From Cylindrobasidium torrendii FP15055 ss-10 (Eukaryota > Basidiomycota > Agaricomycetes > Agaricales > Physalacriaceae), in the NCBI GenBank assembly GCA_000934385.1, contig KN880543.1, positions 1 through 64,000 of the forward strand: 64,000 nt of DNA, given 5' to 3'. Positions 36,989-58,555 of this stretch are shown here, one piece after another. The notes below the pieces were generated by a model that had not been told where the DNA came from, ran no database searches, and saw only the letters and a program-made list of their open reading frames with translations. Position 1 is the stretch's first letter. Each line of letters begins with the position of its first letter. The position numbers and the translations under genes are program-made.

Positions 36989-37002
36989 TAACCCTAACCT
37001 AA
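36989..37002 (-). promoter_or_regulatory. Telomere-repeat-like element upstream of F-box copy 1
   Basis: TTAGGTTAGGGTTA on the minus strand, about 52 bp before the ATG at 36936, with an ACGCGT hexamer immediately downstream of it. The same GGTTAGGG core occurs upstream of six other family members. Confidence 0.55.
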
Positions 37003-37104
37003 ACAACTGATACTTCGTGGCGCGTAGCAATACGCATGTTGAAGGAAATCACAACTATCAAGGCGACTTATCTAAATTTTCGCTCCAACATGTATGAAGC
37101 ACAT

Positions 37105-38494
37105 TTAAGTTGTAAAATAGCTCGGTATCGACGTGAAGACGGTCTCATTACAGCGCGAAGCAAATGGCCCTTTGTAAACCACGCCTGACATTGGCTCTGA
37201 TGGCATCCCAGCAAAGAACTTCTTTGCAACCTTTGGGAACACCGCACACACCCAATTTCTAGCCGTCTGCAGCGGCACGTCTCGGGTATGCCTCTTTGAT
37301 CCTATGAGGACGTCCTGCCAATCCAGATAATCTGCGCGGTCCGCCAACGCATCGTCAAAACGCGCAATCGCATCTGTGTCTGGCATTCTTGAGATGAGGC
37401 GGTCCATCCAATAATCGAAGCGAACAATCACCCGCCCGACTGTCTCGTTATTGTATAACGTCGACGCCCAGTAGTTCAGTGGATTTGCGGTGCAGTCGAT
37501 GTTGATGAACAAGGTCGTTAGCGTTGACGGAAACTGCAAATGCATTTGTCCAGGGTCTGAAAATCGAAGTCAGCTACAAGGCCGTCGTAACAAAGCAAAG
37601 TTATTTCTCACAAAAAGCATTGCAACTTGGCGGCAAATTTAGTTGGATGAGAGAAGGCCATCGCAGCAATAGTCGTCGAACAACAGGTAGGAAATTGAGT
37701 TGGGAGGGAGGGAGAAGGCCAAAATGTGTGACATTGGGAAGGATTGGTTCTCTTGCAACAAGATCCAAAAACTTGACGTCTATTGTAGACACATATCCAA
37801 TCGTGAATGAAGTGACTTGCTCATGCCTAGGCAGAGGTTGCTGCCAGAGGTACGAGTCTAATTGCGCCCCTCGTTTTGGAATCGAATTGAAGCGTAGCCG
37901 GTTTAGAGAAGGAAATTCGTGCATGAATTCGAGTAAATCCGCTGGGGTCACGAACGCATAGTCGGACAGGTCGAGTGACTGCACGAGTGATGTTCGAAAT
38001 GCTGCACGAAGACTGGAAAATCCGAGTTCATCAGAGACGTCGTTCATCAATGCCGGGCAGGCGTTGTGTAGAACAAGGGCTTCGAGGCGAGACGCCATAA
38101 CGAGGATTTCGGCCAGCCACTTTCTGTCTTTCCCAGGGCCGCCGCGCTTTCCGAGTCGACATCCCATGCAGATCTCGCTTCCAACTGAAATTCTGAGTAT
38201 GTACGTAGCCACGTTTGGTGAAGATCTGAGAAGGGAAAGGAGTTGCCAGCATCGTCGTCCGCTCGTCGAGCTATCTACAAACTCGATAGACTCGAATCGT
38301 GTTGTTCGAATATCGTGCCATGCGTCCTTCCAAACTAACCCAAGAGAGGAGAGGGATGAAGGACTTAAATTACCCAGTTTTCGAGTAATCAATCCTTTAA
38401 TTTCGGGCGGAAGAGAGTTTGCCGTGGTCCGCTCTTCGATAACCATTTTCTTCAGTCTTTGACTCAGGGATAGATCGCGCTGTTCTTGCGCCAT
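37105..38494 (-). CDS. F-box-like family protein, copy 2
   Basis: Tandem neighbour of copy 1 on the same strand and its closest relative; both begin MAQEQR. Two exons encode about 440 residues. The F-box-like segment is LPPEIKGLITRKL...SLGLVWKDAWHDIR. The middle contains MASRLEALVLHNACP, VTSFTIGYVSTIDVKFLDLV and LPVVRRLLLRWPSLIQL. The intron falls near 37615-37560 in the same place as in the other members. The second exon has FPSTLTTLFINI, DAIARFDDALADRADYLDW and FPKVAKKFFAGMPSEP, then a short tail ending SIPSYFTT. A telomere-like element precedes it. Confidence 0.8.
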
Positions 38495-38564
38495 TGTCTC
38501 TGAGGCTGTTGGCTAGCCTGAGCTTGAGTTTTTGGGTGATCGTGGTCGAGCACAGACCGACTCA

Positions 38565-38576
38565 TAACCCTAACCT
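38565..38576 (-). promoter_or_regulatory. Telomere-repeat-like element upstream of F-box copy 2
   Basis: AGGTTAGGGTTA on the minus strand, about 70 bp before the ATG at 38494. Confidence 0.55.
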
Positions 38577-38706
38577 GAATGAGACGAACAATGTTGAAAC
38601 TGTGGCGACCAACAATAAAAGCTCAGTCATGTATATATGTATAATTCCTCCAGATATTTCCCTCAATTACGTACCCTAATTGACTAGGCCATATGACACC
38701 AGGAGT

Positions 38707-39816
38707 CTACAAAGTCAGCCCAACAAAGGGCCCAATGTCAAGCACGGGTGGGTCTGCGTAGAACTTCTTTGCTTCCGCCTCCATATCGGGATACGGGACT
38801 TCAGGATAAAGGGCGCGTGCATCTAAAGAGCCACTGGCCAAAGCTTTCGACAGAACATTGTCGCCCCGCAGGTACAAACTATTCATGTACTGTGAGCCAG
38901 CCTTGGTGAGGAGGTCTGTACTCTTTGTGCCTTCCAAGATGACTTCGTCTGGAATCTGTTGATGGTCAGAAATATCAGGCGTGCTCTACGATAGTGAACG
39001 CACCTTCGTGTAGTCGGAGAAGTCCTCGCCAGTGATTTTCTCACCCCACGCGTATGCCTCTTCGAGTGTCATTTCTCCATCGTGGACGACGACAGTCTTG
39101 TTGAGAGTGCGAGGATCCTTCAAGACCTTCGAGGTGAGCAGTCCGATAGTGTCGAACGTCGAAATAATGACTTTCTGCTTCTTGTCTCCCACGTAGTTCT
39201 TCGGCGACACGGGACTCGCTGGGTGGGCGTGAGGGTAGGGAAAGAAAGCTCTGATCCACCATCCATCTTCAATGAAGGTGTATGGCAGGCCGAGCTCTTT
39301 GATGTATTCGCGCAAATCCAGTTTCTGCACCATTGAGTCAGTCGCCGTCAAGCTATAGTACGGGTGTCGAAAGGCTACATACCAGATCGTGCAATGCCAT
39401 GACCCCGCGAGGTGCACTTGGGCCAAAGTCGGACGGTACGACGCGCTTTAGAGTCCCAACCTTCTTCGCCGCCCGGAACAGCGGAGCTTGGTCGAGCAAA
39501 ATGGCCTGAACGGTAGAAACAAGGATGTCGACACCCTTGAGGTGTCCCTCGAGGACGTCCTCAGGCTGGCTGATATCGCCAACACGGACTTCTGCACCAG
39601 CGGCCTTGAAGGCCTGCACATCCGGCTTGTCGAGGGACTTTTCGCGGACGAGAATCGCAACGCGCTATAAAGATGCGCTACTGAGAACGCTTGTCATGCA
39701 CTGCGCTGAGGAGAACTCACGTAGCCACCATCTTTGATGAGGTATTCTGTCACGCATTTCCCGGTATTTCCAGTAGCGCCAACGACAAGAACGAGGGGTT
39801 CAGCTCCAGAAGACAT
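38707..39816 (-). CDS. NmrA-like / isoflavone reductase-like NAD(P)-binding protein
   Basis: Atypical short-chain dehydrogenase of about 310 residues in four exons. Start ATG 39816: MSSGAEPLVLVVGATGNTGK has the GxxGxxG NAD(P)-binding loop after the first strand. Next come RVAILVREKS (NADP-type basic residues), VRVGDISQPEDVLEGHLKGV, VQAILLDQAPLFRAAKKVG, RVVPSDFGP and LPYTFIEDGWW. DGEMTLEEAYAWGEKITG and YPDMEAEAKKFYADP complete the chain, which ends GPFVGLTL. Members include redox-sensing NmrA regulators and phenylpropanoid reductases; substrate unknown. Located between the two minus-strand F-box-like genes and an intergenic region. Confidence 0.86.
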
Positions 39817-41068
39817 GTTACTAATAGCAGTAGTAGGATAGCGCACTGGTCTTTTGGACCATGACTTTTATACCACACAAATACCGAACAATAGGCCGCC
39901 ATCGGTCTATGACTAAGCATTCGCCGATTCCGCGGGTAAGGATCTCGATACCTTGGTAACGCAACACAATGGAATTCTTCCCGGTGATCCTTGCAGCGTT
40001 CAACTCATTACCTCGCAAATATTAGTCAGTAGTGTGGGCTACTCTGCAGGTATCTCGATATCGGACAGCATCAGTCCGCCCGGAAATTGGGCTGGGAATG
40101 GAAGTCTTTCCTTGTTGCCAACTGACATATTGGAGTGTAAGTCATCTTATTGGAATACCGACACGCTCGCCGCGCTTTCTTCATGCACAATCACGCCAGG
40201 ATCGTCCAAAATGGCATTTGTGTGAGCAATCGTTTTGACTATGTCCTGCTAAATAATCGAGAAGTGACACCTCCGCGAAGGCTGGTCGGGTAGGTATGAA
40301 GTGGAGGTTGGGTTTCATGAGGCAGTTAGGCGAACACGTGATCGAGTAGACCGATCACGCTTCCTTATACGATACTACCATCACTATAGTCGAGAATCAA
40401 ATCTCGACTCTTATTTGCTTCCTAAAAACCACCCACCCACCCAACAAAACGAAAAGGAGGACCGTTCCGAGAGCGCGACACGGGTTGTCGTTTCAGCTAC
40501 ACTTCACCGTGCGCGCTCGACCCAGACACCTTCCCAACGCGTTCGCGCTGGTCAGGTTTCTCACCCACTCACAGGAACGGTTCTGTTCTTTCACACAGCG
40601 GATAGCATTTAATGATAAACTAGATCTATGTTCGCATAGCCGGCAATGAAAGGTCATCAGTAGGAGACGTACGTCCATGCCAGCGGTTTTGAACAGTGCG
40701 TCCTTTCGTTACGCCTCCATGTGTATGATGCCAGCTTTAAGCAAGCCCAAAAGAAGAATCATTCATTATGCGCGCCTGCGTATATAAGCTATCATCGATT
40801 GATTCGATTCATTAGCCGTGCCCATTGAACATTCGGTGGCGCTGGTATGCAACAACGCACTGCTTACAGCTTCCTATGTCTCTGTTCAGAGTGATGCACC
40901 CTCTCAAGCTCTACGGTGACTATCATCTGAAGCACAGGAGACGATGAGTACGCGACCGGTTTAGCAGCGCCGCCTCCAGCCTTGATCTGCGCACTCCCTT
41001 ACAGGACCCCTACACCGAGCGCTCGTCGCGAGCCAATAGAATGGCTGTGCGCTACAGGGCTTACCGGT
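39817..41068. other. Intergenic region, no gene recognised
   Basis: 1.25 kb upstream of the NmrA-like gene and the single-pass membrane protein, which are divergent. Only small frames occur. The 5' part of the membrane-protein gene may extend into the right end. Confidence 0.38.
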
Positions 41069-41641
41069 ATGACAGGAACACAAATCCAAGATGCAACGTT
41101 GAATAAAAAGGCATTTCCTCTTGTTCTTACTCCTCGACGCTCGTTACTCAAAGCCTCCTGGATGCGAGCATATTCAATCAACACCAACACCTCCGCACGA
41201 CGGCGTGAGCTCACGAGCGAGGGGAAGTACGCGGTTATATCTTCTATCGTTGCGGTCGTTGTTGCGCTGGTTCTCATCGTTGTCTTCTTGCACGCCTGGC
41301 GACGGCGTCGAGCCAATCGTCCTGCATATACAGCCCTCGACACCCACAATCGACATCGATCCTGGCGTTCGGTAGACATGGAACTGGCTTCGCCTTCATA
41401 CCGCACACAGAGCTTAACAGCGCCCATCCCAAGACACGATAAGCCACAACGTTTCGAGCACCAGGCCGACGTTTTTGCGTCGCCGATGCCTACCCCAGAA
41501 CCACCCATAGCACATCACACAAGTACTCACTTTGTCAACTCGGTGCACGACATTTCAAATGATGGGACTTGGCGGACAACAGAGACAATGATCAAGAACA
41601 GCCCAAATCAGCTGCCAAAGCTGGTCATCCCCGCGAATTAG
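41069..41641 (+). CDS. Single-pass membrane protein, start uncertain
   Basis: Open frame encoding a protein of about 190 residues with one clear transmembrane segment, YAVISSIVAVVVALVLIVVF, followed by the stop-transfer HAWRRRR. The cytoplasmic tail is Ser/Pro/Thr-rich with YTALD, SPMPTPEPP and TSTHFVN. This is the layout of many fungal cell-wall sensor or signalling stubs. The frame is open further upstream without an ATG, so the ATG at 41069 is a guess and an upstream exon with a signal peptide is possible. It converges on UMP1, 142 bp away. Confidence 0.55.
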   Translation: MTGTQIQDATLNKKAFPLVLTPRRSLLKASWMRAYSINTNTSARRRELTSEGKYAVISSIVAVVVALVLIVVFLHAWRRRRANRPAYTALDTHNRHRSWRSVDMELASPSYRTQSLTAPIPRHDKPQRFEHQADVFASPMPTPEPPIAHHTSTHFVNSVHDISNDGTWRTTETMIKNSPNQLPKLVIPAN

Positions 41642-41783
41642 GATGGTACAGTCTGCGACTTCGGGGTGATGCGCGGACCAGTAATTACTGCTGGAGCGGA
41701 ATCCACGTAACTGGGGCAGCTATAGAGGACCGGGCAAGACGAATTGAAATTGGACATTATGTGCATTTGGATCCTGGGTACAA

Positions 41784-42390
41784 TTACATGTTGCGTTTCT
41801 TCTCCATGTCGGCGTGAATATCAAGAGGGATCTCCGGGGAAGGCCCTGGAAGGATATTAGTTCGCGGGGCTGGAAACTGGGAGCGAGAGGCGTACCAGCG
41901 AAGATGTCAGCGGTGTCTATCGTCTCGTCGCGGCCCATCAGGATGTCGAGATGAATATTGGTTTGGGGGAGAACGGGCATGTGCGGGGACTAGGCGAATA
42001 AGACAGAGCAACCAAATGGGTAGTACACGCACTGCAGCGACAATCTTGCGCTCCATGAGCAGTCTCATTGGGGCATGCATGCCATAGATGTCCCGTTGCA
42101 TGGTAAGCTTCAGGTTGTCCTGTGTCTCCTCCCACTAGGGCATGGTGAGCATTGCGTAGTATTGAAGGAACAGTTGCGCACGTTCTCTAAGCGCCCGCGA
42201 ATACCACTCTGTGTCTTGACCTCGGCAGCGATTGTGCGTGGTCCATATCTCAGCGTGTCGTGCAGACCGAGGCTGCCTGCGGTGTCCTGGACAGAAGCGG
42301 TCTTTCCAGAACTAGAGGGGACGATTCTGTATGAGGGATCCTGGTGAACATTGAGAAACTGGACTCCAAGCGTGCAATCTGTAGTACCAT
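41784..42390 (-). CDS. UMP1: Proteasome maturation factor UMP1
   Basis: Chaperone of 20S proteasome assembly, degraded as the first substrate of the finished particle. Five exons give about 140 residues. The ATG at 42388-42390 seems to form a 3-nt coding exon on its own: GT follows at once, and the 48-nt intron ends TTCACCAG before DPSYRIVPSSSGK. Then come SLGLHDTLRYGPRTIAAEV, GRLENWEETQDNLKLTMQR, DIYGMHAPMRLLMERKIV, LPQTNIHLDILMGRDETID and the C-terminal PLDIHADMEKKRNM. The LHDTLRYGP, HAPMRLLMERKIV and DILMGRDETID blocks are diagnostic of UMP1/POMP. The stop is at 41784-41786. It is divergent from the RanBPM-like gene. Confidence 0.9.
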
Positions 42391-42465
42391 CGTGAGTGTA
42401 AGAGGGTAAATTGAACGCGTCAGTGCACGCGTGACTTGCGTGACGCGTCAAGAGAGCAAGTCGCT

Positions 42466-42476
42466 GGTTCGAATCC
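42466..42476 (+). promoter_or_regulatory. B-box-like TFIIIC site
   Basis: GGTTCGAATCC is a perfect match to the RNA polymerase III B-box consensus GGTTCGANTCC. No acceptor stem, D arm or anticodon arm folds around it, so it is not a tRNA gene that I can support. Confidence 0.4.
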
Positions 42477-42769
42477 GTTCGAGGACAGAAAGATCTTCAA
42501 CCAGCATATTCAACTTACTCATGATTTTTGGCTCTCAGGGAGAGTTGGGAGCAGTACGCAAGCTCCCTCAAAGTCATTTCTATTTTCCTTATATTTAATG
42601 CAAGATATCTAAACATTTTGATCGGATCATTTCGGACCGATGCCGTACTGAAACCGCACAAGGCCAGTAACCGTACGAGAGATCTTGTAGAGTCTATAAA
42701 TTCCTGCTGTTACATTAGTATGCGGTGGTAATCCTGAAAAGAGGTTATTAAGGAAAGAACAGCCATGCC

Positions 42770-42780
42770 AGATTCGAACC
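42770..42780 (-). promoter_or_regulatory. B-box-like sequence, inverted
   Basis: On the minus strand it reads GGTTCGAATCT, one mismatch to the B-box consensus, about 300 bp from the first and pointing towards it. A 6-of-7 possible acceptor pairing (CAGGCAT with ATGGCTG) flanks it, but the anticodon arm does not form. It could be a decayed tRNA. Confidence 0.35.
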
Positions 42781-43034
42781 AACGACCGACGATCGTTGGC
42801 CACATGGAGGCCGATCCCATGATGCCTGCAGATGCTTCCGCGTGCGCATCCAGTCAGCTCCAGAGCTCCTTGACTCTTTACCACGACTTTCAAGCGACTT
42901 TCATCGTTTACCTCCGCCCCAAAGGCTTCAATTTATTGCCAATTCCGCCGTCCTGCGACCCAATTTTGGCGCATATTGTCGCCTGACCGTCCATACTCCA
43001 GGTCTCGAAGCTCATTTCATACAAGAATCTCATC

Positions 43035-45426: not shown

Positions 45427-45759
45427 GGAACTCTTGGCTCAGCCCTCCACGCTAAGTTAATTGAATTCGGACTATGTACGATACTATGCTTTCCCCCTTA
45501 CTCTGATGCTGGAGCCAAAGTGATGTGATTAGGAATGTAAACAAATAGTGCGCAATGTATAGTAAATTTGACAACGATTGGGTCTGAGCCAGGTCTGAGC
45601 CAAGCTTGAAAAGAGATTGATTCTAGTGCTGAGTGTTTTATTCCATGCCTACTTTGTGCTTGAGCCAGGAGCCTTGAGCGCGCTGAGTTGCAACGCGGTG
45701 TCGTGATACGCATCCTTGCGAGGGCTTCCCACGTTTCCTCTGGACCACCACGACACGAC
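45427..45759. other. Intergenic region before the F-box-like array
   Basis: About 330 bp. Its right end (from about 45690) carries GCAACGCGGT and CACGTTTCC, shared with the upstream regions of later array copies, but the GGTTAGGG element is missing. Confidence 0.5.
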
Positions 45760-47096
45760 ATGCCGTCCATTATGGACTTGCCAGCTGAACTCAAAGAGCT
45801 CGTACTCAAGGAACTGGCCCGCATGGGCCAAGTAAGCTCTCTCGCCCTTGTCTGGCGAGAGACATGGCACGATATTCGCATCTCGCGATTTCAGTACATC
45901 GACCTCGACGACTACAAATCTCGTTCGGTCCGTCTACCTAAACTATTGGCAATCATCAAGACTGCTCCAGAGGTCGCGCTCTATATCAAAGAGATAGATC
46001 TCGGTGACGCTCGTGACTGGACATTGAACGGAGTCCCCTGCCATTGGAACCAGGAGGAAGGATTTTGCGAGAAGCTTGCGTCGCTGATACACGTCGCTCG
46101 TTGCGCAGACGAGCTATCGCTGCGTAGAATGTATCCCTCGACGCCTCTTGAGTATCGCCAATACTCTGTCCTCAAGTCAGCGTTCCAAGCATCGTCCATT
46201 CGGCATCTCCACCTCAATGAGTTCATCTTCTCATCACCGACCAAACTGCTCGAATTTATAGATTGGTTTCCCCTAGTCGAAAGTATAGACATGGTCGACG
46301 GGCGGGCAGATAGTGAGGAAGGGCTGGACGAGTCGCATTGGATACAGCCTTTGCCACAGCATGCTCACATTACTTCTTTGGGTCTCACATACGCATCTGA
46401 CGCCGATGTCCGGCTCTTGCACCTTATAGCAGACCAGCCTCTCTTCCCTGATGTTCAATCGTTTGCCATGAGTTGTTATGATTTAAACTTCATGCCCACT
46501 CTGCGGCGGTTGCTTGTGCAATGGTCGGCGACTCTCACGTCCTTGGAGCTTCCTTTTCTCATACCTCGGTATGGTATGCTGCTATTTCTTCGCGTTTTAT
46601 ATTGACATACTTACCGCACAACAAAGTCCCTATTGGAGTGGCTCCGTTGCAACTACCGCCAACATTGACAACACTAGACGTTGGCGTCCAGCTCTTGAAA
46701 GGACAACAATCTTGCACTGAATTTTTTACGAGCACCCTTCTTCAAAACAAAGCCATTTGGAAGCTGAAGCTCGTCGTTCGTTACTCACACCAATGCGCCC
46801 ACCTCATGACACCCGCGGAGATCGACGCCATAGCGCGTTTGGACGCGGCCGTGGTGGAGCGCGTCGAATTTCTGGAATGGGAGGGCATCCTTGCGCGGCC
46901 GTGTACATGCACGTCCAAAGATGCTCCGACTTGCACATTCCAGGATGTGTGCAGGACGGCGGATGAGTGGATGTTCAAGCAGGCGCTTCCGAAGGTGACG
47001 GAGAAGTTTTTTTCTGGGATGCCTATTCCAGAACCTGGTGACATCCATAGGGGGCCGTTTTCGACGAGGGAACACTGGTCCTACGACTCGAATTGA
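45760..47096 (+). CDS. F-box-like family protein, array copy A
   Basis: Two exons, about 430 residues. The ATG at 45760 opens MPSIMDLPAELKELVLKEL, and ALVWRETWHDIR completes the F-box-like region. The following segment repeats LRR-like features (YIKEIDLGDARDWTL, LLEFIDWFPLVESIDM, HITSLGLTYASDADVRLLHL, RRLLVQWSATLTSLELPFL). The 53-nt intron at 46574-46626 joins to VPIGVAPLQLPPTLTTL. The C-terminal exon holds VVERVEFLEWEGILARPCTC, a cysteine-containing stretch (CTCTSKDAPTCTFQDVC), WMFKQALPKVTEKFFSGMP and REHWSYDSN. Its 3' half and intron are nearly identical to copy B. Unlike the other array members its upstream region lacks GGTTAGGG. SCF substrate adaptor function is inferred from the F-box-like start only. 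Confidence 0.8.
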
Positions 47097-47542
47097 GGTT
47101 CAGATGAAGAGGATGCAGAGGTTGGGCTTAGTATGAGCGTGGAAATTGTTCTACCGTTCACACTACATAATAAAGGGATAGTCAGAAGCGTCCCACTTGC
47201 ACATTATTGTATGTTTCTCATCCAGGGTAGTGGGTCATGGTCGATTGCGACGTGGGCTCGTGTAAACATGTGATCGTTTCTTTCCCGTATTTAGTAGACT
47301 AGATAGCCTCATGTCGCTCTCCAGCCTTGTGAGCGGTACGTGTATTCTTTCGCATTCTTTAAAAGCTACTTGTAGTGTACCGATCCGTCTTTGTACCTGC
47401 AGGTCGCTTGGATTCGGTCTTGGATCAGTTTACTTTCTTGCTCGTGAAGTTCATTGGCTGGCAACGCGGTATCGTGATCAATGATCATTCCCACGCGTCT
47501 TTGGGGTTAGGGCTTCACACGTTTCCTCTGGACCACCACGAC
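47097..47542. other. Spacer between array copies A and B
   Basis: 446 bp, about 200 bp longer than the other spacers in the array. The left part is the conserved copy A 3' segment. The middle (about 47215-47450) has no counterpart in later spacers. The right part is the conserved upstream block of copy B. Confidence 0.55.
47503..47515 (+). promoter_or_regulatory. Telomere-repeat-like element upstream of copy B
   Basis: GGGGTTAGGGCTT about 28 bp before the ATG at 47543, with ACGCGT just upstream of it. Confidence 0.55.
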
Positions 47543-48879
47543 ATGCCGTCCATCATGGATCTCCCGATGGAGCTTAAAGGGCTCGTGCTCAAGGCACTGT
47601 CCCGTATTGGCCGAGTAAGCTCTCTTGCCCTTGTCTGGCGAGAGACGTGGCACGATATTCGCACCGCGCGATTTCAGTACATCGACCTCGACGACTACAA
47701 ATCTCGTTCGGTCCGTCTGCCAAGACTATTGGGAATCATCAAAACTGCTCCAGAGGTCGCGCTCTATATCAAAGAGATAGACGTCGGCGAAGGTGGTGAC
47801 TGGACATTGAACGGAGTCCCCTGCCATTGGAGCGAGGAGGAAGGCATTTTGGAGAACCTTGCGTCGCTGATAAACGTTGCTCGTTGCGCAGACGAACTAT
47901 GGCTGCGTAGAATGTCCCCCTCGATTCCGCTTGAATGTCCCCAATACTCTGTCCTCAAGGCAGCGTTCCAAGCATCGTCCATTCGGCATCTCCATCTCTA
48001 TCAGTACATCTTCACATCACCAGCCAAACTGCTCGAATTCATAGATTGGTTTCCTCTCGCGGAGAGTATAGATATGTACGACGGGCGGGTAGAAAGCCAG
48101 GAAGGGCTGGACGAGTCGCAAAGGGTGCAATCCTTGTCACAGCATGCCCAAATTACCTCTATGGCTCTCACATACGCATCTGACGCTGATGTCCGGTTCT
48201 TGCAGCTTATAGCAGACCAACCTCTCTTCCCTGATGTTCAATCGTTTGCCATGAGTTGTTATGATTTCAACTTCATACCCACTCTGCGGCGGTTGCTTGT
48301 GCAATGGTCGGCGACTCTCACGTCCCTGGAGCTTCCCTTTCTCATACCTCGGTATGGTATGCTGCTATTTCTTCGCGTTTCATATTGACATACTTACCAC
48401 ACAACAAAGTCCCTATTGGAGTGGCTCCGTTGCAACTACCGCCAACATTGACAACACTGGACGTTAGCGTTCGGCTCGTGAAAGGACAACAATCTTGCAT
48501 TGAATTTATTACAAGCACCCTTCTTCAGAACCAAGCCATTGGCAAGCTCATGCTCGTCGTTCGCTACTCATACCAATGCGCCCATCTCATGACACCCGAG
48601 GAGATTGACGCCATAGCGCGTTTGGACACGGCCGTGGTGGAGCGCGTCGAATTTCTGGAATGGGAGGGCATCCTTGCGCGGCCGTGTACATGCACATCCA
48701 GGGATGTTCCAACCTGCGTATTCCAGGATGTATGCAGGACGGCGGATGAGTGGATGTTCAAGCAGGCGCTTCCGAAGGTGACGGAGAAGTTTTTTGCTGG
48801 AATGCCTATTCCAGAACCTGGGGACTTCCATAGGGGGCCGTTTGCGACGAGAGAACACTGGTCCTACGACTCGAATTGA
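47543..48879 (+). CDS. F-box-like family protein, array copy B
   Basis: Two exons, about 430 residues. The ATG at 47543 gives MPSIMDLPMELKGLVLKALS; an open frame extends upstream but this ATG aligns with the other copies. LVWRETWHDIRTARF, WTLNGVPCHWSEEEGI, LLEFIDWFPLAESIDM and RRLLVQWSATLTSLELPFL follow. The intron begins GTATGCTGCTATTTC and is almost the same as in copy A. The second exon has LPPTLTTLDVSVRL, VERVEFLEWEGILARPCTC, CRTADEWMFKQALPKVTEKF and ends REHWSYDSN. Both exons are intact. Confidence 0.82.
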
Positions 48880-49077
48880 GGTTCAGATGAAGAGGATGCA
48901 GAGGTTGGGCTTATAATACGAGCGCGGAAATTACTCTACCGGTCACACTACATAATGAAAGGATAATCAGAAGTGTCCCACTTGCATATCATTGTGTGTT
49001 TACTCTCTTGCCACACGGCGTGAAGTTCTTAGTCCACTTGGCTGGCAACGCGGTGGCGTGATCATTCCCACGCGCCC

Positions 49078-49092
49078 TTAGGGTTAGGGCTT
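49078..49092 (+). promoter_or_regulatory. Telomere-repeat-like element upstream of copy C
   Basis: TTAGGGTTAGGGCTT, two perfect TTAGGG hexamers, about 32 bp before the ATG at 49124. Confidence 0.55.
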
Positions 49093-49123
49093 CACACGTT
49101 TCCTCTCACCATCACCACACAAC

Positions 49124-50504
49124 ATGCCGTCCGTCATGGACCTTCCAGCCGAACTCAAAGGGCTTGTACTAGAAGAATTAGCGGACATCGATGTTGTGGA
49201 CTCTCTTGCCCTGGTCTGGCGGGAGACGTGGCACGATATTCGCACCTGGCGATTTCAGTACGTCGACTTCGGCACCTACAGAGCTCGTTCAGTCCAGCTT
49301 CCAGGACTATTGGATATTATCAGAAGTGCTCCGGAGATTGCGCGCTATATCAAAGAGATAGATGTTGGCGAAGCTGGTGACTGGTCATTCAAGGATGGAG
49401 TGCGCTGCCGCTGGAGCCAGGAGGAGGGCTTTTGCGAAAACCTTGCGTCGCTTGTCAATGCAGCACGCTGTGCAGAAGCACTATATTTGCGTGGAATGCC
49501 ACCCCGACCACTCTCGAGTGTCCCCAATACTCTGTTCTCCAAGCAGCATTCCAAGCATCGTCTATCAGGCATCTCAACCTCCACGAGTTCACATCACCAG
49601 ATAAACTGCTCGAACTAATAGGCTGGTTTCCTAAAGCAGAAAGTTTATTTGTATCCAAAGAACGGTCAGAGAGTGAAGAGGGGAAGGCACCCGGCGAGTG
49701 GCACTGGATACAACCCTTACCCCAGCACACCCACATCACTTCGCTAGACCTCACATACGAGTCTGACGCCGAAGTGCAATTTTTACAGCTTATAGCGGAC
49801 CAGCCTATCTTCCCGAATGTTCAATCGTTTGCCATAGGCTGCCATGACTCCAACTTCATACCAATTCTGCGGCGGTTGTTCATAAAATGGTCGACAACTC
49901 TCACGTCCTTGGAACTCCCTTTTCTCGAGCCAGAGCATGGTATACAGCTACTCTCCCGCCTTCCTTATTTGCATGCTGACTGCTCAACGAAGTTCCTATG
50001 GGAGAGGCTCCCCTGCAACTACCGCCGACATTGACAACCCTAGACCTCGGGATTCGGCTCATGGAAGGAGAAAAATCTTGTCTCGAATTTCTCTCGAATA
50101 CCCTCCTTCAAAACCAAGTCATCGAGAAGCTTCTCCTCACCGTGCACTACTCGCACCAATGCGCCCATCTCATGACACCTGTGGAGTTATATGCTATAGC
50201 GCGTCTGGACACGGCCATAGTGGAACGCGCCGAGTTTCTGGCCTGGGTGGCCATGCTCGTGCGTCCTTGTACATGCAACTCTGGAAAAGCTTCCTCCTGC
50301 ATATACCAGGATGTGTGCAGGACGGCGGATGAATGGGTGTTCAAGAAAGCACTTCCAAAAGTCACGAAGAAGTTCTTTACGGGAATGCCGTTTCCGGAGC
50401 CTGGAGATTTTCATAAAGGCTTGTTCGCGATGAGGGAACACTGGTCCTACGACTCGGATTCAGATGAGGATGACGAGGGTGAGGACGTTGGACTTATAAT
50501 ATGA
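49124..50504 (+). pseudogene. F-box-like family, array copy C, frameshifted
   Basis: Collinear with copies B and D but exon 1 changes frame. The first frame runs MPSVMDLPAELKGLVLEELA through LVWRETWHDIRTWRF to ALYLRGMPP and then goes astray. The sequence resumes in another frame with CPQYSVLQAAFQASSIRHLN and continues FPKAESLFVS, HITSLDLTYESDAEVQFLQL and FIPILRRLFIKWSTTLTSLE. Between the ATG of RGM and the shared TGTCCCCAATAC there are 20 nt here against 21 nt in copy B, so one base was lost at about 49499-49518. Exon 2 is open (LPPTLTTLDLGIRLM, VERAEFLAWVAMLVRPCTC, WVFKKALPKVTKKFFTGMP) and ends in an acidic DEDDEGEDVGLII tail. Either a recent pseudogene or an assembly error. Confidence 0.75.
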
Positions 50505-50660
50505 GGGTGGAAATTACTCTACCTATCACACTACAGAATAAAAGGATATTCAGAAGCATCCTACTTAGACATATGTTTACTCTCTTCCTCTTGAGTTTAT
50601 TCAGCCTATAATTTTCTGGCTGGCAACGCGGTGGCGTGATCATTCCCACGCGCCCTCCTT

Positions 50661-50673
50661 GGGGTTAGGGCTT
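50661..50673 (+). promoter_or_regulatory. Telomere-repeat-like element upstream of copy D
   Basis: GGGGTTAGGGCTT about 32 bp before the ATG at 50705. Confidence 0.55.
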
Positions 50674-50704
50674 TACACGTTTCCTCTAACCACCACGACA
50701 CGGC

Positions 50705-52083
50705 ATGCCATGCATTATGGACCTTCCAGCCGAGCTCAAAGGGCTCATACTAGAAGCATTGGCTGACATCGATGTCGTGGACTCTCTTGCCTTAGTCTGG
50801 CGCGAGACGTGGCACGACATTCGCACCTGGCGCTTTCAGTACGTCGACTTCGGCACCTACAACGCTCGTTCCATCTATCTTCCGAAACTATTGGACATCA
50901 TCAAGACTGCCCCAGATGTCGCGCGTTACATCAAGCAGATAGATGTAGGCGGCACAGGTGACTGGGAGCCGGAGGGACCTTATTACGATACTGAAGAGGA
51001 CGGCATTTGCCAGAATCTTGCGTCGCTGATTAATCTTGCCCGCCGCGCAGATACAATATGGCTGTGTGGACTTTTCCCACCGACCACTCGCGACTGTCCG
51101 GAGTACGCTGTCCTCCAGGCAGCGTTCCAAACATCGTCTATTAAATATCTAAACCTTCACGAGTACACCTTCACAACACCAGCCAAGCTACTTGAATTCA
51201 TTGGCTGTTTCCCTCGAGTGGAAAGCGTAGAGATCATCCCCGTGCGCACCCTCAATGAGGATTGTCTAGACGAGCATCTGTGGGTTCAAGCCTGGCCCCA
51301 GTATGCCCACATCACTTCGCTGGATCTTGCATACGAATCTACAGCCGAGGTTCGCTTCTTTCAGCTCATCGCGGACGAGCCTATCTTTCCCAATATCCAA
51401 TCTTTCTCCGTCGGTAATCATGAGCCTAGCTTCATTCCGATTCTACGACGGCTCCTCATGCGATGGTCCGCGACCCTCACATCCCTAGAGCTGCCCTTCC
51501 TCCAGCCCGAGCATGGTATGTAATTGTCTACTCCTACACCTTCATTCAGGATGCTCACTTTGTTGTCAAAGTCCCTCCAGGAGAAACTCCTCTGCAACTG
51601 CCACCAAGGTTAACAACCTTCAACATCGGAGTACAGCTCATGGAAGGACAGCAATCTTGCCTTGATTTCATCACGAACACTCTTCTTCGAAACCAAGTCA
51701 TCGAGAGGCTCCTCATCACCGTACGCTACTCGCACCAATGCGCCTATCTCATGACGTCCGCGGAGACAGATGCTATAGCACGTTTGGATACAGCCATAGT
51801 GGAACGCGTCGAGTATCTGGTGTGGGAGGCCATGCTCGCGCGCCCGTGTACATGCAACTCTGGGAACGCCTCTACCTGCATATTTCAGGATGTGTGCAGG
51901 ACTGCCGACGAGTGGATGTTCAAGAAGGCGCTTCCAAAAGTGACGAAGAAGTTCTTTACGGGGATGCCTTTTCCTGAGCCTGGGGATTTCCACAGAGGGC
52001 CGTTCGCGACGAGGGAACACTGGTCTTATGATTCAGATTCGGGTTCGGACGATGAGGATGCGGAGGTTGGGCTTATAATATGA
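50705..52083 (+). CDS. F-box-like family protein, array copy D
   Basis: Two exons, about 440 residues. MPCIMDLPAELKGLILEALA and LVWRETWHDIRTWRF form the F-box-like start. The middle differs most from A and B in the loop GTGDWEPEGPYYDTEEDG. Later blocks are LLEFIGCFPRVESVEI, HITSLDLAYESTAEVRFFQL and ILRRLLMRWSATLTSLELPF. The intron starts GTATGTAATTG after QPEHG. Exon 2 has LPPRLTTFNIGVQLM, VERVEYLVWEAMLARPCTCN, CRTADEWMFKKALPKVTKKF, FPEPGDFHRGPFATREHWSY and an acidic tail DSDSGSDDEDAEVGLII. It is closest to copy C. Confidence 0.82.
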
Positions 52084-52239
52084 GTTTAAAAACTACACAT
52101 AATAAAAGGATAATCAGAAGCGTGCTACTTAGACATCGTATACTTACTCTCTTTTATTGAGTCTTGCGACTCTTGCCGCACGTGAAGCTGACAATGACTG
52201 GCCGGCAACGCGGTAGCGTGATCATTCCCACGCGTCCCT

Positions 52240-52252
52240 GGGGTTAGGGTTT
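52240..52252 (+). promoter_or_regulatory. Telomere-repeat-like element upstream of copy E
   Basis: GGGGTTAGGGTTT about 32 bp before the ATG at 52284; an ACGCGT hexamer lies just upstream. Confidence 0.55.
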
Positions 52253-52283
52253 CACACGTTTCCTTCGCCCACCACGACACGAC

Positions 52284-53620
52284 ATGTATCTTCCAGCCGA
52301 GCTCAAAGGGCTCATTCTAGAAGAATTATTCGACATTGATGTCGGGGACTCTATCGCCCTTGTCTGGCGAGAGACGTGGCACGATATTCGCACATTGCGA
52401 TTTCGATACGTCGACTTCGACGACTACAGATCTCGTTCCGTCTCTCTTCCCAATCTATTGGATATTATCAAAACCGCCCCGGAAGTCGCGCGTTATATCA
52501 AAGAGATAAATGTAGGCAAGGCTGGCGACTGGAAAATGGGATTCCTAGGCCACTGGAGCCAGGAGGAAGGCATTTGTGAAAATCTTGCGTCGCTGATCAA
52601 GGTTGCTCGTCACGCAGAGGAACTTTACCTACATAAAATGGTCCCTATTCTTCCTGTGCCAGAGAGCCAAGAATATGGTGTCCTTCAATCAGCGTTCCAG
52701 GCTTCATCTATTCGGCATCTACACCTCTGTAACGCCTGGTTTGTATCACCGGAAAGACTGCTCGAATTCATTGGCTTGTTTCCCAAGGCGGAAAGCATAG
52801 AGATGCCCGACGGATGGCCAGAGCAGAAGGACCGGTGGATGCAGCCCTTGCCACAGTGCACTCAAATCTATGCGCTGGAACACTCGTACGTGTCTAACAC
52901 GGACAGACGGTTTTTGCGGCTTTTAGCGGACAGACCCATCTTTCCCAACATCCAATCCTTTACAATGCGTTTTCATGCGCGCAGCTTTATACCGATTCTG
53001 CGACGGCTGCTCGTGCAATGGTCGACGACTCTCACGTACCTGGCACTGCCCTATCTCGCTCCTGCGTATGGTATGCAGCTCTCACACCTTTCATACTGGA
53101 ATACTCACTAGCCGTTCAAGTACCCGTGGGAGAGGCTCCGCTGCAATTGCCGCCAGGATTGACGACCTTGAACATCGGGGTAGAGATCGTCAACGGACAA
53201 CGACCTTGCCTCGAATTTATCACGAACACCCTTTTTCAGAACAAACCTATCGGGAAGCTGATGCTCGTCGTGAGCTACTCACACCAATGCGCCTCTTTCA
53301 TGACGCCCGCGGAGATCGATGCCATAGCGCGTTTGGACACGGCCATAGTGGAGCGCGTCGAATTTCTTGAATGGGAGGGCGTCCTTGCACGACCGTGTAC
53401 ATGCACATCCAGAGATGCTCCAAATTGCACATTCCAGGATATTTGCAGGACGGCGGATAGGTGGATGTTCAAGCAGGCGCTTCCAAAGGTGACGGAGAAG
53501 TTTTTTGCGGAGATGCCTAGTCCAGAGCCTGGAGATTTTCACAGAGGGAAGTTTGCGACGAGGGGCCACTGGTCCTACGACTCGGATTCAGGCTCGGACG
53601 ACGAGGATGAGGACGTCTGA
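52284..53620 (+). CDS. F-box-like family protein, array copy E
   Basis: Two exons, about 425 residues. The start MYLPAELKGLILEELFDIDV lacks the five residues (PSIMD-like) that follow Met in the other copies, so the ATG itself has shifted within the same segment. SIALVWRETWHDIRTLRF, LLEFIGLFPKAESIEM, a shortened acidic loop (DGWPEQKDRWMQPLPQ) and ILRRLLVQWSTTLTYLALPY follow. Exon 2 reads LPPGLTTLNIGVEIVNGQRP, VERVEFLEWEGVLARPCTC, WMFKQALPKVTEKFFAEMPS and ends DSGSDDEDEDV. Both exons are open. Last unit of the array. Confidence 0.82.
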
Positions 53621-53881
53621 CTTAGAATATGAGCTTGGAAACTATTCTATAATCGCATTCCAAACTGGTACTCATAGGACAAGAAGAGTTAGCGTGTTAT
53701 ATTCCAAAGCGTCCTACAATTAGACTTGCTTTCAACTCGAAATTCCACATTTGGGTCCTCTTACTCTGCTCTTGCCGTACTATCTTCAGGCCAGCCAAAA
53801 GAGCACGCCAAAAAGTCACATCAGCAATAAATAATCTAAAATACACATGATATCCAACATAACACTACACATCCACCAAAC

Positions 53882-56103
53882 TCAGTTCGGTCCAATGAAC
53901 TGGTACAGAATCCTCCTAACCAGACCCGACAAATGGTGCGGGTCATTTTGGTACGTGCTCATCACCATCGCCATACCCATCGCCGTCAACAACGCCTCCC
54001 CCGGCTTTCCCGCACGGAAGCCCCCATTGCCCACCTTGCCCGTCGCAATATTATACCAACTCTCCATCGCCTTGGGAAGCACATACATCGCCAACTCCGC
54101 CCTGCGTTTCTTCTCCTCGAGGAACATCGCAAGGCCTGTAGCAAGACCCGGGAACCAGTACGCCGCGCGCGACACAAACAGGAAGTCCACGACGCTCTGC
54201 GGAAGCTTGAAGATCGAACTCGCAGGCAGAGTTGTGAAGTATTCATGCAGGTTGCTGCGTCCACAAATAGATCCTAAGGCGGGGTTCAGTCAGACAGACG
54301 TGAGAAGACAGAAGACAAGGAAAACGGACCCTGGTATATGATAACATAGAGACCAAGGAACGAGCAGCTCTTTATTGTTCCCACAAGAGCTTTGAGGAGC
54401 ATGCGGTGGGGGTTGCGCATGAACGCAGTCGTCCTGAACAGGATTGGGGGCAAGAAGTGCAGAGCGCCGTAGACAGGCAACATGAAGCGCGCAACATCGA
54501 AGAAGCGCTTGAAAGGCACTTCGCGCAAGCAAGAGGTCTGGCCTGGATGCAAGGCTGGGCACGGAATGTGGGCTGATGGCATGTACTTCGCCGCATCGGA
54601 AGAATGGAGGAGGTAGTCCTGTTTGGTCGAGAGCAGTAGTTCTGCGTTCTCGGGTGTGATTTTCCATTTCTAGAGGCGAAGTTAGTATCGTGCTGGTCAG
54701 TGGGGCGAAAGGCGCATACCGAGCTGGTCAATATCTTGTCCAGTTCGGCGGTATCAAAGTTGTGGGTATGCAGCATGTCATGGTTGGCACGGATGGCCTC
54801 TGGCGGACAATGCGACGCGCGTATAATCCTGCCCAACGCATTAGCATTGCAACACGAACCTGTGTCTTGGGACTCACCAGCCGCGATAACCTGCTGGAAG
54901 ACTGTCCGGACGCACAAAGGACGCATACAGCACTTGAGCAGAGCTAGATAGAGGGATTAGCGCCATTCAAAAGGTCAAAGAGCGGTGCTCACACAAGGGA
55001 GAACAAGATTATGTCACCGTGAGGAATGGTGATGTTCTTGCGCGTGGTAAAGGCGTTGAATGACCCTTGGAGCCCACTTGAAGGATGATTAGCATTGAAC
55101 TGGGTGCGAACGCGTCTACGCACCGAACAAACATCTGCTGGCCGATGGTGATGCGTCGTCCGCGCTTCTCGAACAGAACGGCCAATCCCCCTGCGATGAA
55201 TCCGGCCAATGCAGCATGCCATCGACGCGTCTTCTTGCGAACGATGACCTGTTGGGCCTGGGCGCTGAGTGAAAGGCGAGCGGAGCGGTTTCTGCGGGAC
55301 AGCCCTGCATTTGGGAGTGATACGACTGTCGCTTCAAACTCCGGGCCATCTCCATCCTCGATAGCGGTATCGGACTCGTGCTTGGGCCTCATGGGGAGCA
55401 AGAGTGGGAGCGCATTGATGAGGAATTTATAGACCGACGTGAAACAGCCTGCGCAAGGTAAGAATGGTCGGATGGATGGGATAGGACGGTAGCCCCACCG
55501 AGCATGGCAGCAAAGCGCCATGTATCCTCTCCGAATATTGCGCGCCCAAGGATGGCTAATCTCTGGTTTCTGCAATACGTTTAGAGACAGAGCGGGATGG
55601 AGAAGATGTATGCGTACTTTGGGACCCTTCTCAGTCTGATAAATGCCAGAATAAGATTGAACGCCGCCCGAATGTTGAATGCGAGAGTTGCAGCGCCTGG
55701 ATGGTGATGAGTGATGGCTTGAATGTTGGACAGTACACGCACGAAATCCGCCCAGTGCTGCGTGTCTCAAGCAGGCTTCCAAGTCGGGCAGTTCCACTAC
55801 TGGTTCTCCACGGACGCGCCATACCATCTTTCTGGCTTCCTTAAGACGTTCTTGATGGTTGGCGAGGGCGACGAGGTTCTCGAAGGATGCCATTGCGCGT
55901 CTTGGGGTAAAGTAGATGCCACCGAGCTCGTTGGTGGACGGGGTACCCATTCCAGACGGCGGTAGGCTGAGATGGCCCTCTGTTGGGGAGCCAGAGTCTG
56001 GGGGCGTGTCCCGTGGGGTAAGGGGAAGGACGCGTCCACCGTCGCGCTTGCTGGCCGACATGGAAGAGAGAAACAAGCTGGGTTTGCTTTTGCTAGCCGG
56101 CAT
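53882..56103 (-). CDS. TMEM135 N-terminal-domain membrane protein
   Basis: Multi-pass membrane protein of about 590 residues in roughly eight exons. The first in-frame ATG is at 56103 (MPASKSKPSLFLSS); the open frame upstream has none. The N-terminal 100 residues are polar, with GIYFTPRRAMASFENLVALA. LEACLRHAALG then begins the TMEM135-like region. Its most diagnostic parts are ALAGFIAGGLAVLFEKRGRR, GLQGSFNAFTTRKN, YGALHFLPPILFRTTAFMRN and LKALVGTIKSCSFLGLYVII. AAYWFPGLATGLAMFLEEKK, RRAELAMYVLPKAMESWYNI and the end LVRRILYQFIGPN complete it. The GFIAGGL and glycine-rich helices recall the Tim17/22/23 type. Animal TMEM135 acts in peroxisomal and mitochondrial lipid traffic; the fungal role is unknown. 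Confidence 0.84.
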
Positions 56104-56873
56104 TTTGGCGAGGAGTTGGGAATCGAGTAAGCCCAGGGTCAGGCATAAAATACTCTGCGCGACCTGATGGTGGGTCGATGACACAACGGCTTCAGGTCAT
56201 GTGAATATCACGATCGACTCCTTCTTGCCGGTCACAATTTCCCACGGCCACAACCCAGCCCAAGTCTATCTGAATTCGCCCCACATGTCGCTCTCGTACG
56301 GCCAGCCTGGTGGGCTCTTCGGAATCCTCTCCTTCAAGTCGAGTCTTGTCTGGAATGTATTCTTCTTGCGCCCGTCTCGGATCCACACGGGCGCCCAACT
56401 TGCTCGTACTGATATGGTACAGCTTTTCGCATTCCAACTTTCAACTTCTCCCTGGCGGAAGGGAGGTTATTTACACCAATACCACCACACGGTGATCCCG
56501 ACGTCCGTAAGTTACGAGTGGGAGGCACCTATTAACCTTATCGTGAGCTGCTTCAATACAGCCAATATCCCCGGGCTCTGCGACATGAATAGTACGGTTT
56601 TCAAGTTAGTCCGCGAACTTCAAATGCCGCAATGGGAATGGGGCGCCGATCAGTACTCTATGACATTGCCTGACTTGCTAAATCCCCTTGGGAGACGGTA
56701 GACCGTCGTCCCATGTCAAGCTCTCGTTATTTGGTATTGAAATGTGCTCACGCTCCTGCGAAGCCAATGAGGGGGCGTCCGCAGACTAGGTCCGCCGGCA
56801 GGCAGAGCACTAACGATGATGGAATTTAAGATAAGGAATCGATGTCGACCACTGCGTCCATATTCCTCCCACC
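56104..56873. other. Divergent promoter region
   Basis: 770 bp between the TMEM135-like gene (minus) and the aminotransferase (plus). A plus-strand open frame of 166 codons (56201-56701, internal ATG at 56286) spans it. It lacks recognisable motifs and a conventional upstream ATG, so I do not call it. Confidence 0.4.
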
Positions 56874-58432
56874 ATGACCTTCGACGTTCAGCAAGCCCGC
56901 TCCCATTTTTCCGCACTCAAGTCGGGTTTCATCTTCGCCGACAACGCTGGCGGCTCGCAGTGCGCCAAGGATGTCGCCGACAAGGTGTACGACTACCTGC
57001 TGAACACCAACGTCCAACTCGGCGCGGACTACTCGGTATCCGTGCTTAGCACCACCAAGGTGACTGTCGAGGCGCCCAAAGTAGCCGCGAAGCTATTCAA
57101 CTGCTCCCCGGACGAAATCATCTTCGGTCCCAGTTCCTCCGCAAACATGGAGAACCTCGCGAGGAGCTTGGATGCGAGCATCGAGGCCGGAGATGAGTTC
57201 ATTCTTACCGGAGAGCACGAAGGTGATTTTAGCTTTCCCTGGGATAGCCTATCTACTTTATTAACCGTGGTCCTCGTAGCCAACAACGGGCCATTCAAGA
57301 AGCTCGCAGCGCGCACGGGTGCCGTGGTCAAATTCTGGCGCCCGACTCCGACAAACCCGAGTAACCCGTATTCTGTGGCGCTCAAGACAGACGAACTCCT
57401 CCCTTTGATCACGTCGAAAACGCGCATCATCGCGTTCACGGCTTGCTCAAATATCTTGGGCTCCATCGTCCCGGTGAAAGAGGTAGTAGAGGCCGCTCGG
57501 AAGGCTGCGAAGAAAGAGGGCGCGGACAAGGTTCAATTCTCTGTCGATTGCGTCGCGTATGCTCCCCACCGTCTTATCGACGTCAAGGACTGGGACATAG
57601 ACTACTGTGTCTTCTCGTTCTACAAGGTGAATGATCGTTGACACAAAGACAACTGAATTCGAATTGACGACCTCCCGATAGGTGTATGGTCCTCACACGT
57701 CTGCTTTATACGTACGCCAGCACACACTCGACAAGCTCTCCTCTATCGTACACCACTTCCTCAAGGTCGACACCAAAGCGCACAAACTTCAGCCTGGAGG
57801 CCCCGGCTATGAGCTCGTCTATGGAACGACAGGCGTCGTCCCATACCTCGAGTCTCTCACTCCCGAAGGTACATTGAAGGCGACCTTTGCCGCCATTGCA
57901 GAGCACGAACAAACCCTGGTCGAGCCGCTACTCAAGTTCTTGACAGCACCAGCACAAGTAGAACGAGGCGTACGTGTCGTTGGGCGCGAGGAGGCCGGTT
58001 TAACACGGGTGCCGACCATTAGTTTTGTCGTTGTGGGACAAAAGCCTCTCAAGAGTAAAGCTGTCGTTGATTTCTTCGACAAGAAGGGTGGGGTGCGTAA
58101 CAGTCCTTCCATTAGTTTCCGTACTTCAGCTACGTCGAGTCGCCTGTCGGACGGACCCATGCTGGCATACCTCGCATTTTTATCCGTATTCTTGTTGAGG
58201 ACCGCTGTTTGCCCTTGGCAATCCGTCGATTCGTTTCCTGTAGCCTTCAACGTCGCTGACCCATCGACAGATTGGCATTCGCTATGGCCACTTCTACGCT
58301 TATGGCCTCATCGACAACCTAGAGCCCAAGATAGACCCGGAAGACGCTGTCATCCGCATATCGCTTGTCCACTACAACACGGTAGAGGAGGTGACTGCAA
58401 TAATCGAGACGCTGAAAGAGGCGCTGTCTTAA
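56874..58432 (+). CDS. Class V aminotransferase / cysteine desulfurase-like
   Basis: PLP-dependent enzyme of about 430 residues, four or five exons. Start ATG 56874 (MTFDVQQARSHFSALKSGFI). FADNAGGSQCAKDVADKVYD is the usual FLDNAAGSQ-type opening. EIIFGPSSSANMENLARSLD follows, then ILTGEHE (His stacking on PLP), intron, ANNGPFKKLAARTGAVVKFW, FTACSNILGSIVP, VQFSVDCVAYAPHRLIDVKD (Asp binding the PLP pyridine N) and YCVFSFYKVYGPHTSALYVR with the Schiff-base Lys in SFYK. C-terminal parts are YELVYGTTGVVPYLESL, VPTISFVVVG, RYGHFYAYGL and IRISLVHYNTVEEV. The motif set matches a fungal cysteine desulfurase-like subgroup without the NifS/IscS active-site Cys loop, so substrate is open. Confidence 0.87.
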
Positions 58433-58541
58433 TTGTCATTGAATTGTAGTTTTGGGACTTGGGAGGAAAGAGATTGTCGTTGTAACATAGTATGGAAGCG
58501 ACTGCTCGATGAATCGAGATTGTCGGTGTCCGTCGAAAAGA

Positions 58542-58555
58542 TAGGGTTAGGGTTA
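58542..58555 (+). promoter_or_regulatory. Telomere-repeat-like element upstream of F-box copy F
   Basis: TAGGGTTAGGGTTA about 25 bp before the ATG at 58580. The flanking sequence differs from the array copies, yet the element and the following ACAC and CCACGACATG are kept. Confidence 0.55.

Follow-up and report, generated by a model that had tools for sequence, protein, structure and literature searches.

Mushrooms have large and varied families of F-box-like genes, and we know of no account of how their members stay co-expressed. One locus of Cylindrobasidium torrendii FP15055 ss-10 brings this question into focus. Bases 1-64,000 of contig C113 (hereafter the window), in a genome of 29.3 Mb and 494 contigs, hold eight F-box-like genes, of which one, copy D, encodes CYLTODRAFT_491160 (100% match, which gave the source). 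Seven of the eight carry the telomere-repeat-like word GGTTAGGG, the core of a 12-base element called here the telobox, shortly before the ATG. Is the telobox a promoter element of this family, and which protein would act on it? The observation, first made in a sequence-only reading of the window, is confirmed, and the interpretation that came with it is, as a whole, partly supported. On the sequence evidence set out below we lean, by a small measure, towards a putative functional promoter element of the Tay1/Teb1 type.

The telobox and its genes in the window

Exact matches to GGTTAGGG number seven in the 64,000 bases. The expectation given by 100 dinucleotide shuffles is 1.25; the highest of them contained five and none reached seven. 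No such excess exists for TTAGGG alone, with 12 observed and 17.6 expected in the window. All seven occurrences lie upstream of F-box-like genes and have the orientation of the gene, as the sequence-only reading had described for seven of the eight genes. The distances it gave were roughly correct, since 35-81 bp were measured from the first base of GGTTAGGG to the A of the ATG, and copy A was rightly singled out as lacking the motif. The features are as follows; distances are measured in the same way, and splice choices are those of our script.

35585-36936, minus strand: F-box-like gene g1; exons 36936-36051 and 36000-35585, 433 residues by the script's splice choice
36989-37000, minus strand: telobox AGGTTAGGGTTA of g1; 63 bp before the ATG at 36936
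37105-38494, minus strand: F-box-like gene g2; two exons, 444 residues by the script's splice choice
38565-38576, minus strand: telobox AGGTTAGGGTTA of g2; 81 bp before the ATG at 38494
45716-45727, plus strand: place of the lost telobox of copy A (TTGCG---AGGGCTT), from the alignment of A-E
45760-47096, plus strand: F-box-like copy A, without telobox; two exons, 427 residues by the script's splice choice
47504-47515, plus strand: telobox GGGTTAGGGCTT of gene B; 38 bp before the ATG at 47543
47543-48879, plus strand: F-box-like gene B (P0002, CYLTODRAFT_491158); 427 residues
49081-49092, plus strand: telobox GGGTTAGGGCTT of copy C, or TTAGGGTTAGGG with the TTA before it; 42 bp before the ATG at 49124
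49124-50504, plus strand: F-box-like copy C; frame broken after about 130 residues
50662-50673, plus strand: telobox GGGTTAGGGCTT of gene D; 42 bp before the ATG at 50705
50705-52083, plus strand: F-box-like gene D (P0001, CYLTODRAFT_491160); 440 residues
52241-52252, plus strand: telobox GGGTTAGGGTTT of gene E; 42 bp before the ATG at 52284
52284-53620, plus strand: F-box-like gene E (P0003, CYLTODRAFT_491161); 428 residues
58544-58555, plus strand: telobox GGGTTAGGGTTA of gene F, which together with the preceding base includes the HisBox core of fission yeast, AGGGTTAGGGTT; 35 bp before the ATG at 58580
58580-59913, plus strand: F-box-like gene F; two exons, about 428 residues, acceptor uncertain

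The proteins form a diverged family, the first exons being 31-60% identical to that of D. No F-box family of Pfam was found with the eight first exons at expectation values (E) up to 1, nor with P0001-P0003 at E up to 5, and database names that start with "F-box" are attached to P0001 and P0003. A weak structure model (mean pLDDT, the predicted local distance difference test, of 65, and about 51-65 over the first 40 residues) consists of helices followed by strand-helix repeats. Its best PDB match, and the sole one with E below 0.001, is 4i6j_B of a ubiquitin ligase-substrate complex (E 2.9e-4); COI1 is also near the top, beside many leucine-rich-repeat (LRR) proteins that are not F-box proteins. 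F-box/LRR adaptors appear to be the likeliest reading of the family, not a proven one.

In the alignment of A-E, the site of copy A differs from its neighbours by a 3-base gap and one substitution, where B and D read TTGGGGTTAGGGCTT. Copy A is nested beside B in the protein tree (support 100/98), and hence the element was lost in A. Copy C retains its telobox and shows family matches in two frames (49124-49525 and 49498-49944); it is either a young pseudogene or an assembly error. Directly upstream of g2 lies a gene of the same direction (38707-39816, minus strand; start MSSGAEPLVLVVGATGNTGKC), putatively NmrA/isoflavone-reductase-like, and the g2 telobox stands in the approximately 210 bp between the two.

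Retention of the element in a diverging family

Members outside the window were sought with protein D as query, a search that is blind to the motif and that gave 19 matches. The best two off contig C113, at C38:92089-92892 and C38:122005-122832 (E 1.7e-29 and 4.2e-25), have GGTTAGGGTTA upstream of the ATG, at -32 and -41, and a member on C315 carries the variant TAGGGTTAAGGTT, with GGTTAAGG starting at -62. The association of motif and family was hence re-found off the window, in 2 of 2 members on C38 and as a variant on C315. Under P0004, a homologue 71% identical over 60% of the query was recorded on a 5.6-kb contig, and a protein search with the family, of limited reach, gave five matches, all of them in this genome or on one other contig.

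The element has a defined form. In 10 of 10 motif-bearing copies it consists of two head-to-tail GGGTTA hexamers in a 6-bp register, with 0-2 mismatches each, and its consensus, RGGTTA-GGGYTW, stands in gene sense 32 to 81 bp before the ATG. When the tandem copies B, C, D and E are counted as one lineage, seven lineages are available (g1, g2, the tandem group, F, C315 and the two C38 members, C38a and C38b), and the orientation is sense in all seven. With 150 bp upstream and D representing the tandem group, six of the seven lineages contain GGTTAGGG and six contain TAGGGTTA, the former being missing from C315 and the latter from D. Admitting all four tandem copies would bring TAGGGTTA to 7/7 through copy C alone, so that six remains the fair figure. 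In shuffled sequences the best 8-mer reached at most three of the seven lineages (32 of 1000 runs with D and 38 of 500 with the four copies; the same bound was seen in a 300-run set). Counting from the first G of GGTTAGGG, 5-7 lineages agree at positions 0-10, and 2-5 agree at the other positions within 15 bp, with one exception at six.

With the motif excised, the upstream DNA of different lineages aligns near the shuffled baseline (20 shuffles a pair, in a comparison that left out copies A and C). Two of the 33 pairs in which at most one partner is a tandem copy slightly exceed the shuffle maximum (F-C315, 0.75 vs 0.72; E-C38b, 0.68 vs 0.66), and the pairs B-D, B-E and D-E are 0.79-0.83 identical. 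The claim that the motif is kept in the diverged g1, g2 and F within otherwise different upstream sequence thus stands. Since the element persists while its surroundings are near the shuffled baseline, it looks selectively kept, a conclusion that we hold to be highly probable, and chance retention in lineages so diverged is unlikely. A functionless motif that a young family merely inherited, or that gene conversion made uniform, would account for B, C, D and E, which are close tandem copies with flanks conserved on both sides. However, seven lineages share the word although their upstream DNA is near the baseline and their protein branches are mostly long, and under gene conversion the flanks would have come along. 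We regard such passive descent as very improbable.

Among the distant relatives, GGTTAGGG was found in none of 13 within about 600 bp before the match (five on C73, three on C269 and one each on C147, C218, C43, C247 and C9); the nearest telomere-like words there are CCCTAA at -181 (C269:31105) and AGGGTT at -584 (C269:28006). By comparison, 9 of 11 core members carry it (Fisher P 4e-5, related genes not being independent), and tandem hexamers precede the ATG in 10 of the 11, namely these nine and the C315 variant, copy A being the one without. If C218, which has no motif, is counted as core, the figure becomes 9/12. The protein tree comprises 21 rows, copy C, C73:18128 and C9 being left out, and places 10 of its 11 distant relatives on one side of a 99/100 branch, while C218 groups with the motif-bearing side without branch support. 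The ancestor of the core clade probably already had the element, which was then kept as the flanking DNA changed; copy A lost it, and so perhaps did C218, the placing of which is unsure.

As an alternative, the sequence-only reading named spread of the family from subtelomeric copies; the word would then be a leftover telomere repeat. The sequence does correspond to about two telomere units, as judged from the TTAGGG repeat known from other fungi rather than from this species; TTAGGG is the most prevalent telomere repeat and occurs in various fungi (PMC7952879). Against this origin, each copy has only about two units, in a fixed orientation and at a fixed place before the ATG, and the clusters lie inside contigs (36-60 kb of the 78.6-kb C113; 92 and 122 kb of the 155-kb C38). 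No four-unit TTAGGG array is present in the whole assembly, and hence subtelomeres cannot be located in it. Subtelomeric spread is not supported and is, of all the readings considered, the one to which we give the least credence.

The sense orientation in all seven lineages, 32-81 bp from the ATG, would also suit a transcript, the word then being an RNA element in the 5′ leader, either a protein-binding site of the UAGGG type or a translation control. Plant telo boxes are concentrated in 5′ untranslated regions (PMC3022908), which agrees with such a role. On the other side, the distance to the ATG varies by 49 bp and the tandem-hexamer register suits a DNA site for a double-Myb protein, so that we consider the RNA element improbable. 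The telobox may sit in the core promoter or in the 5′ leader, and it probably acts at the level of the promoter DNA.

A candidate binding protein and related elements

A protein of the telomere-binding Myb kind that had been suspected is encoded in the genome. A Pfam search for Myb domains gave 33 places, covered by 17 stretches. One of these, on C134 and reached through L071, a match below the cut-off of the Myb family, has repeats that look TRF-like, and its gene (L071 and L075) is CYLTODRAFT_444894 (P0006), of 846 residues. Myb_DNA-binding matches it in two stretches; the repeats span residues ~109-162 and ~199-251 and end in VDLKDRFRTYFPDAY (VDLKDRFRTYF) and TDLRDRFRNAFPDLY (TDLRDRFRNAF). 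Compared with solved chains at E up to 0.01, all 15 matches of P0006 are TRF-type telomere factors, each through repeat 1. Its closest named homologues among the matches listed are from Desarmillaria, Armillaria and Mucidula, and the name "meiotically up-regulated gene 152" stands on 15 of the 120 homologues listed, of 604 in all (some names being incomplete). Mug152 is a synonym of Teb1/SpTay1 (PMC4839565). By its repeats and homologues, CYLTODRAFT_444894 is classed as a Tay1/Teb1-family double-Myb protein. The search pattern [LIMF]KD.WR was discarded: its three places (eight for the reversed control) include no Myb protein. Elsewhere, a GGTTAGGG at C2:266352-266359 (L065) abuts a Myb-domain frame on the same strand (PF00249, C2:266088-266352).

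The nearest known counterpart of the telobox is the HisBox, or AACCCT box, of fission yeast. In that yeast AGGGTTAGGGTT(t/g)tgat stands in the promoters of the canonical histone genes, which are bound in vivo by Teb1 (PMC4839565). Both elements have two tandem TTAGGG-type units in the promoters of a gene set, and the HisBox is bound by a double-Myb protein of the Tay1 family. The HisBox 12-mer AGGGTTAGGGTT is exact in gene F and close in the other copies, and a homologue of Teb1 is encoded here. The systems differ in that the HisBox targets core histones, while the genes here are F-box-like and binding is a prediction; in addition, the GATA-type factor Ams2 uses the 17-bp box as well (PMC5128866). 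Tay1 of Ustilago maydis likewise has two TRF-like Myb repeats followed by a long C-terminal part, and binds two or more GGGTTA units (PMC7744550). The role described for it, however, concerns the replication and recombination of telomeres, through Blm, and not gene control.

Other TTAGGG-type promoter words are less alike. Those of budding yeast are bound by the TRF-like Myb protein Tbf1 (PMC6410037, PMC2834713), but with free orientation and spacing in Saccharomyces and as a spaced palindrome in Candida (PMC2834713), whereas the element here is a single-orientation 12-bp tandem. The plant telo box AAACCCTA is also a short telomere word near the ATG or in the 5′ untranslated region, frequent in ribosomal protein genes, but it has one unit, occurs in about 9% of Arabidopsis genes and is often accompanied by site II motifs (PMC3022908). 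The C. torrendii element differs from it by its two-hexamer form and its 40 genomic sites, and AAACCCTA (other strand TAGGGTTT) is present in only one of the 10 motif-bearing copies, gene E. The sequence-only reading had suggested that a family-specific telobox regulon would be new. The kind of element is known already, as TTAGGG promoter elements bound by Tay1/Teb1 have been described at the histone genes of fission yeast (PMC4839565), and what is unusual in this new case is the target family. In searches limited to open-licence papers, no title or abstract was met that describes TTAGGG motifs as promoter elements of F-box genes in basidiomycetes.

A mechanism can be proposed on this basis. 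The element would most likely be a docking site for CYLTODRAFT_444894, whose two Myb repeats would fit the two tandem hexamers. Binding would activate or pre-open the promoters of the family together, as Teb1 does at the histone promoters of fission yeast. As to the binder itself, we give the Tay1/Teb1 protein an even chance. The full proposal is more tentative and at present rather doubtful. In it, a Tay1/Teb1 double-Myb protein would act through the kept two-hexamer telobox to drive the ubiquitin-ligase adaptors of a fast-diverging family, which would form a regulon; this one protein could then tie the production of F-box-like proteins to telomere state, S phase or meiosis.

Distribution over the genome

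Genome-wide, GGTTAGGG is rare: 327 sites on both strands, against 1095 for the reversed word and about 570 extrapolated from the dinucleotide expectation of the window. Were every one of the 327 sites at a separate start codon, with 10,000 genes assumed as a round number, the chance of 9 of 11 core members carrying one would be 2e-12, a figure that ignores relatedness, and that of six of the seven lineages 8e-9. The motif is also far rarer upstream of other F-box genes. With 150 of its 418 candidates scored, the profile PF12937 gave at least 141 F-box-like places, from which the window's family is absent. On contigs C1-C37, for which the list of GGTTAGGG sites is complete, the word was found within 1 kb upstream of the domain in sense orientation at none of 37 other F-box matches, and in antisense at one. 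Among the 141 places, GGTTAGGGTTA is upstream of one (C277, antisense) and RGGTTAGGGYTW of none.

Several points weigh against a Tay1/Teb1-type element of this family. The statement that the motif stands beside no other gene of the window holds, 7 of 7 sites there being at the family. Genome-wide, of the 40 sites of RGGTTAGGGYTW, nine are at the family and 31 lie away from it, so that the element is not exclusive. The pattern RGGTTAGGGYTW was itself derived from family members, which makes the count of 9/40 only descriptive, and there is no enrichment over the genome, with 40 sites vs 59 for the reversed pattern and 27 of GGTTAGGGTTA vs 34. The 27 GGTTAGGGTTA sites comprise five at the family, six in one repeat, two in another and 14 elsewhere, and of these 14, seven are near open frames, as compared with 47.6% of random places (a comparison of little power). 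On the tree, the motif label needs at least three changes and not one, two of them by well-supported branches. Branches are long for F (1.68 changes per column), C315 (1.91) and also C218, and with several long branches the deeper placings are unsure. The second hexamer has two mismatches in copies B-D and C315, and retention was assessed among the paralogues of this one genome. Repeat 2 of P0006 taken alone matches MYB21 best (E 4e-5), TRF1 reaching only 0.02. Ustilago Tay1 works at telomeres, and a single GGGTTA gives no detectable binding in vitro (PMC7744550). Finally, a protein of the Trf2/Tbf1 type could bind the sites instead.

On this last account, another TTAGGG-binding protein, acting as a general regulatory factor, would keep the promoters free of nucleosomes, and nothing in the element would be specific to Tay1/Teb1. 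In budding yeast, Tbf1 is such a factor at promoters and helps to exclude nucleosomes (PMC6410037), and in Ustilago both Tay1 and Trf2 are present, with similar specificity (PMC7744550). The many RGGTTAGGGYTW sites off the family agree with it, as do the varied Pfam matches (NDUFS4, BTB, HMG box, XRN, Coa1 and F-box-like) in 6 of 10 open frames near eight GGTTAGGGTTA sites. On the other side, a Tbf1 Myb query gave no genome match at E up to 0.01 (three candidates scored, no working control), and the TRFH family PF08558 gave none either, a result that is uninformative because its controls also gave none. The palindrome TTAGGGN6CCCTAA of Candida Tbf1 is absent: over 150 bp, none of the 11 upstream regions contains CCCTAA. 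A Trf2/Tbf1-type factor is unlikely, if less so than an RNA element, and a Tay1/Teb1-type promoter element remains the reading that we prefer.

The sites away from the family show associations of their own. In six places GGTTAGGGTTA is followed by CGCGATCG at near-fixed spacing, an XRN gene and an F-box gene being among the neighbours, and the sites at C277:4872 and on C210 have common flanks; the pair is a possible composite promoter element of other genes. In six places GGTTAGGGTTA adjoins repeat DNA of the GGCCCACCCAGCCAGAGTGGCC type, which is a dispersed repeat that starts with, or is inserted at, telomere-like DNA. Several GGTTAGGG and AACCGGTTA words also occur in a second repeat, on C327 and C483 (L042:4882-4934 and L046:207-259). 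The pairs and junctions are located as follows.

C20:13659-13679, C77:86286-86306, C210:22723-22744, C277:4851-4872, C277:9452-9473 and C367:1287-1308: GGTTAGGGTTA-CGCGATCG pairs
L002:1501, L003:1501-1511, L038:4979, L043:82-92, L044:4420 and L047:4980-4990: GGTTAGGGTTA-GGCCCACCCAGCCAGAGTGGCC junctions

CGATCG was considered as a part of the family element and rejected, as it occurs in 1 of 11 family upstream regions (C38a); telobox and CGATCG together gave 10 matches at eight distinct GGTTAGGG sites, vs four for the reversed control.

What the locus offers is a 12-bp element kept while the protein and the surrounding promoter were rewritten, together with a named candidate factor. The case bears on whether basidiomycete Tay1 is a transcription factor besides being a telomere protein. 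If the predicted binding is true, the promoter role of Tay1/Teb1 would extend from the histones of fission yeast to an adaptor family of the Agaricales.

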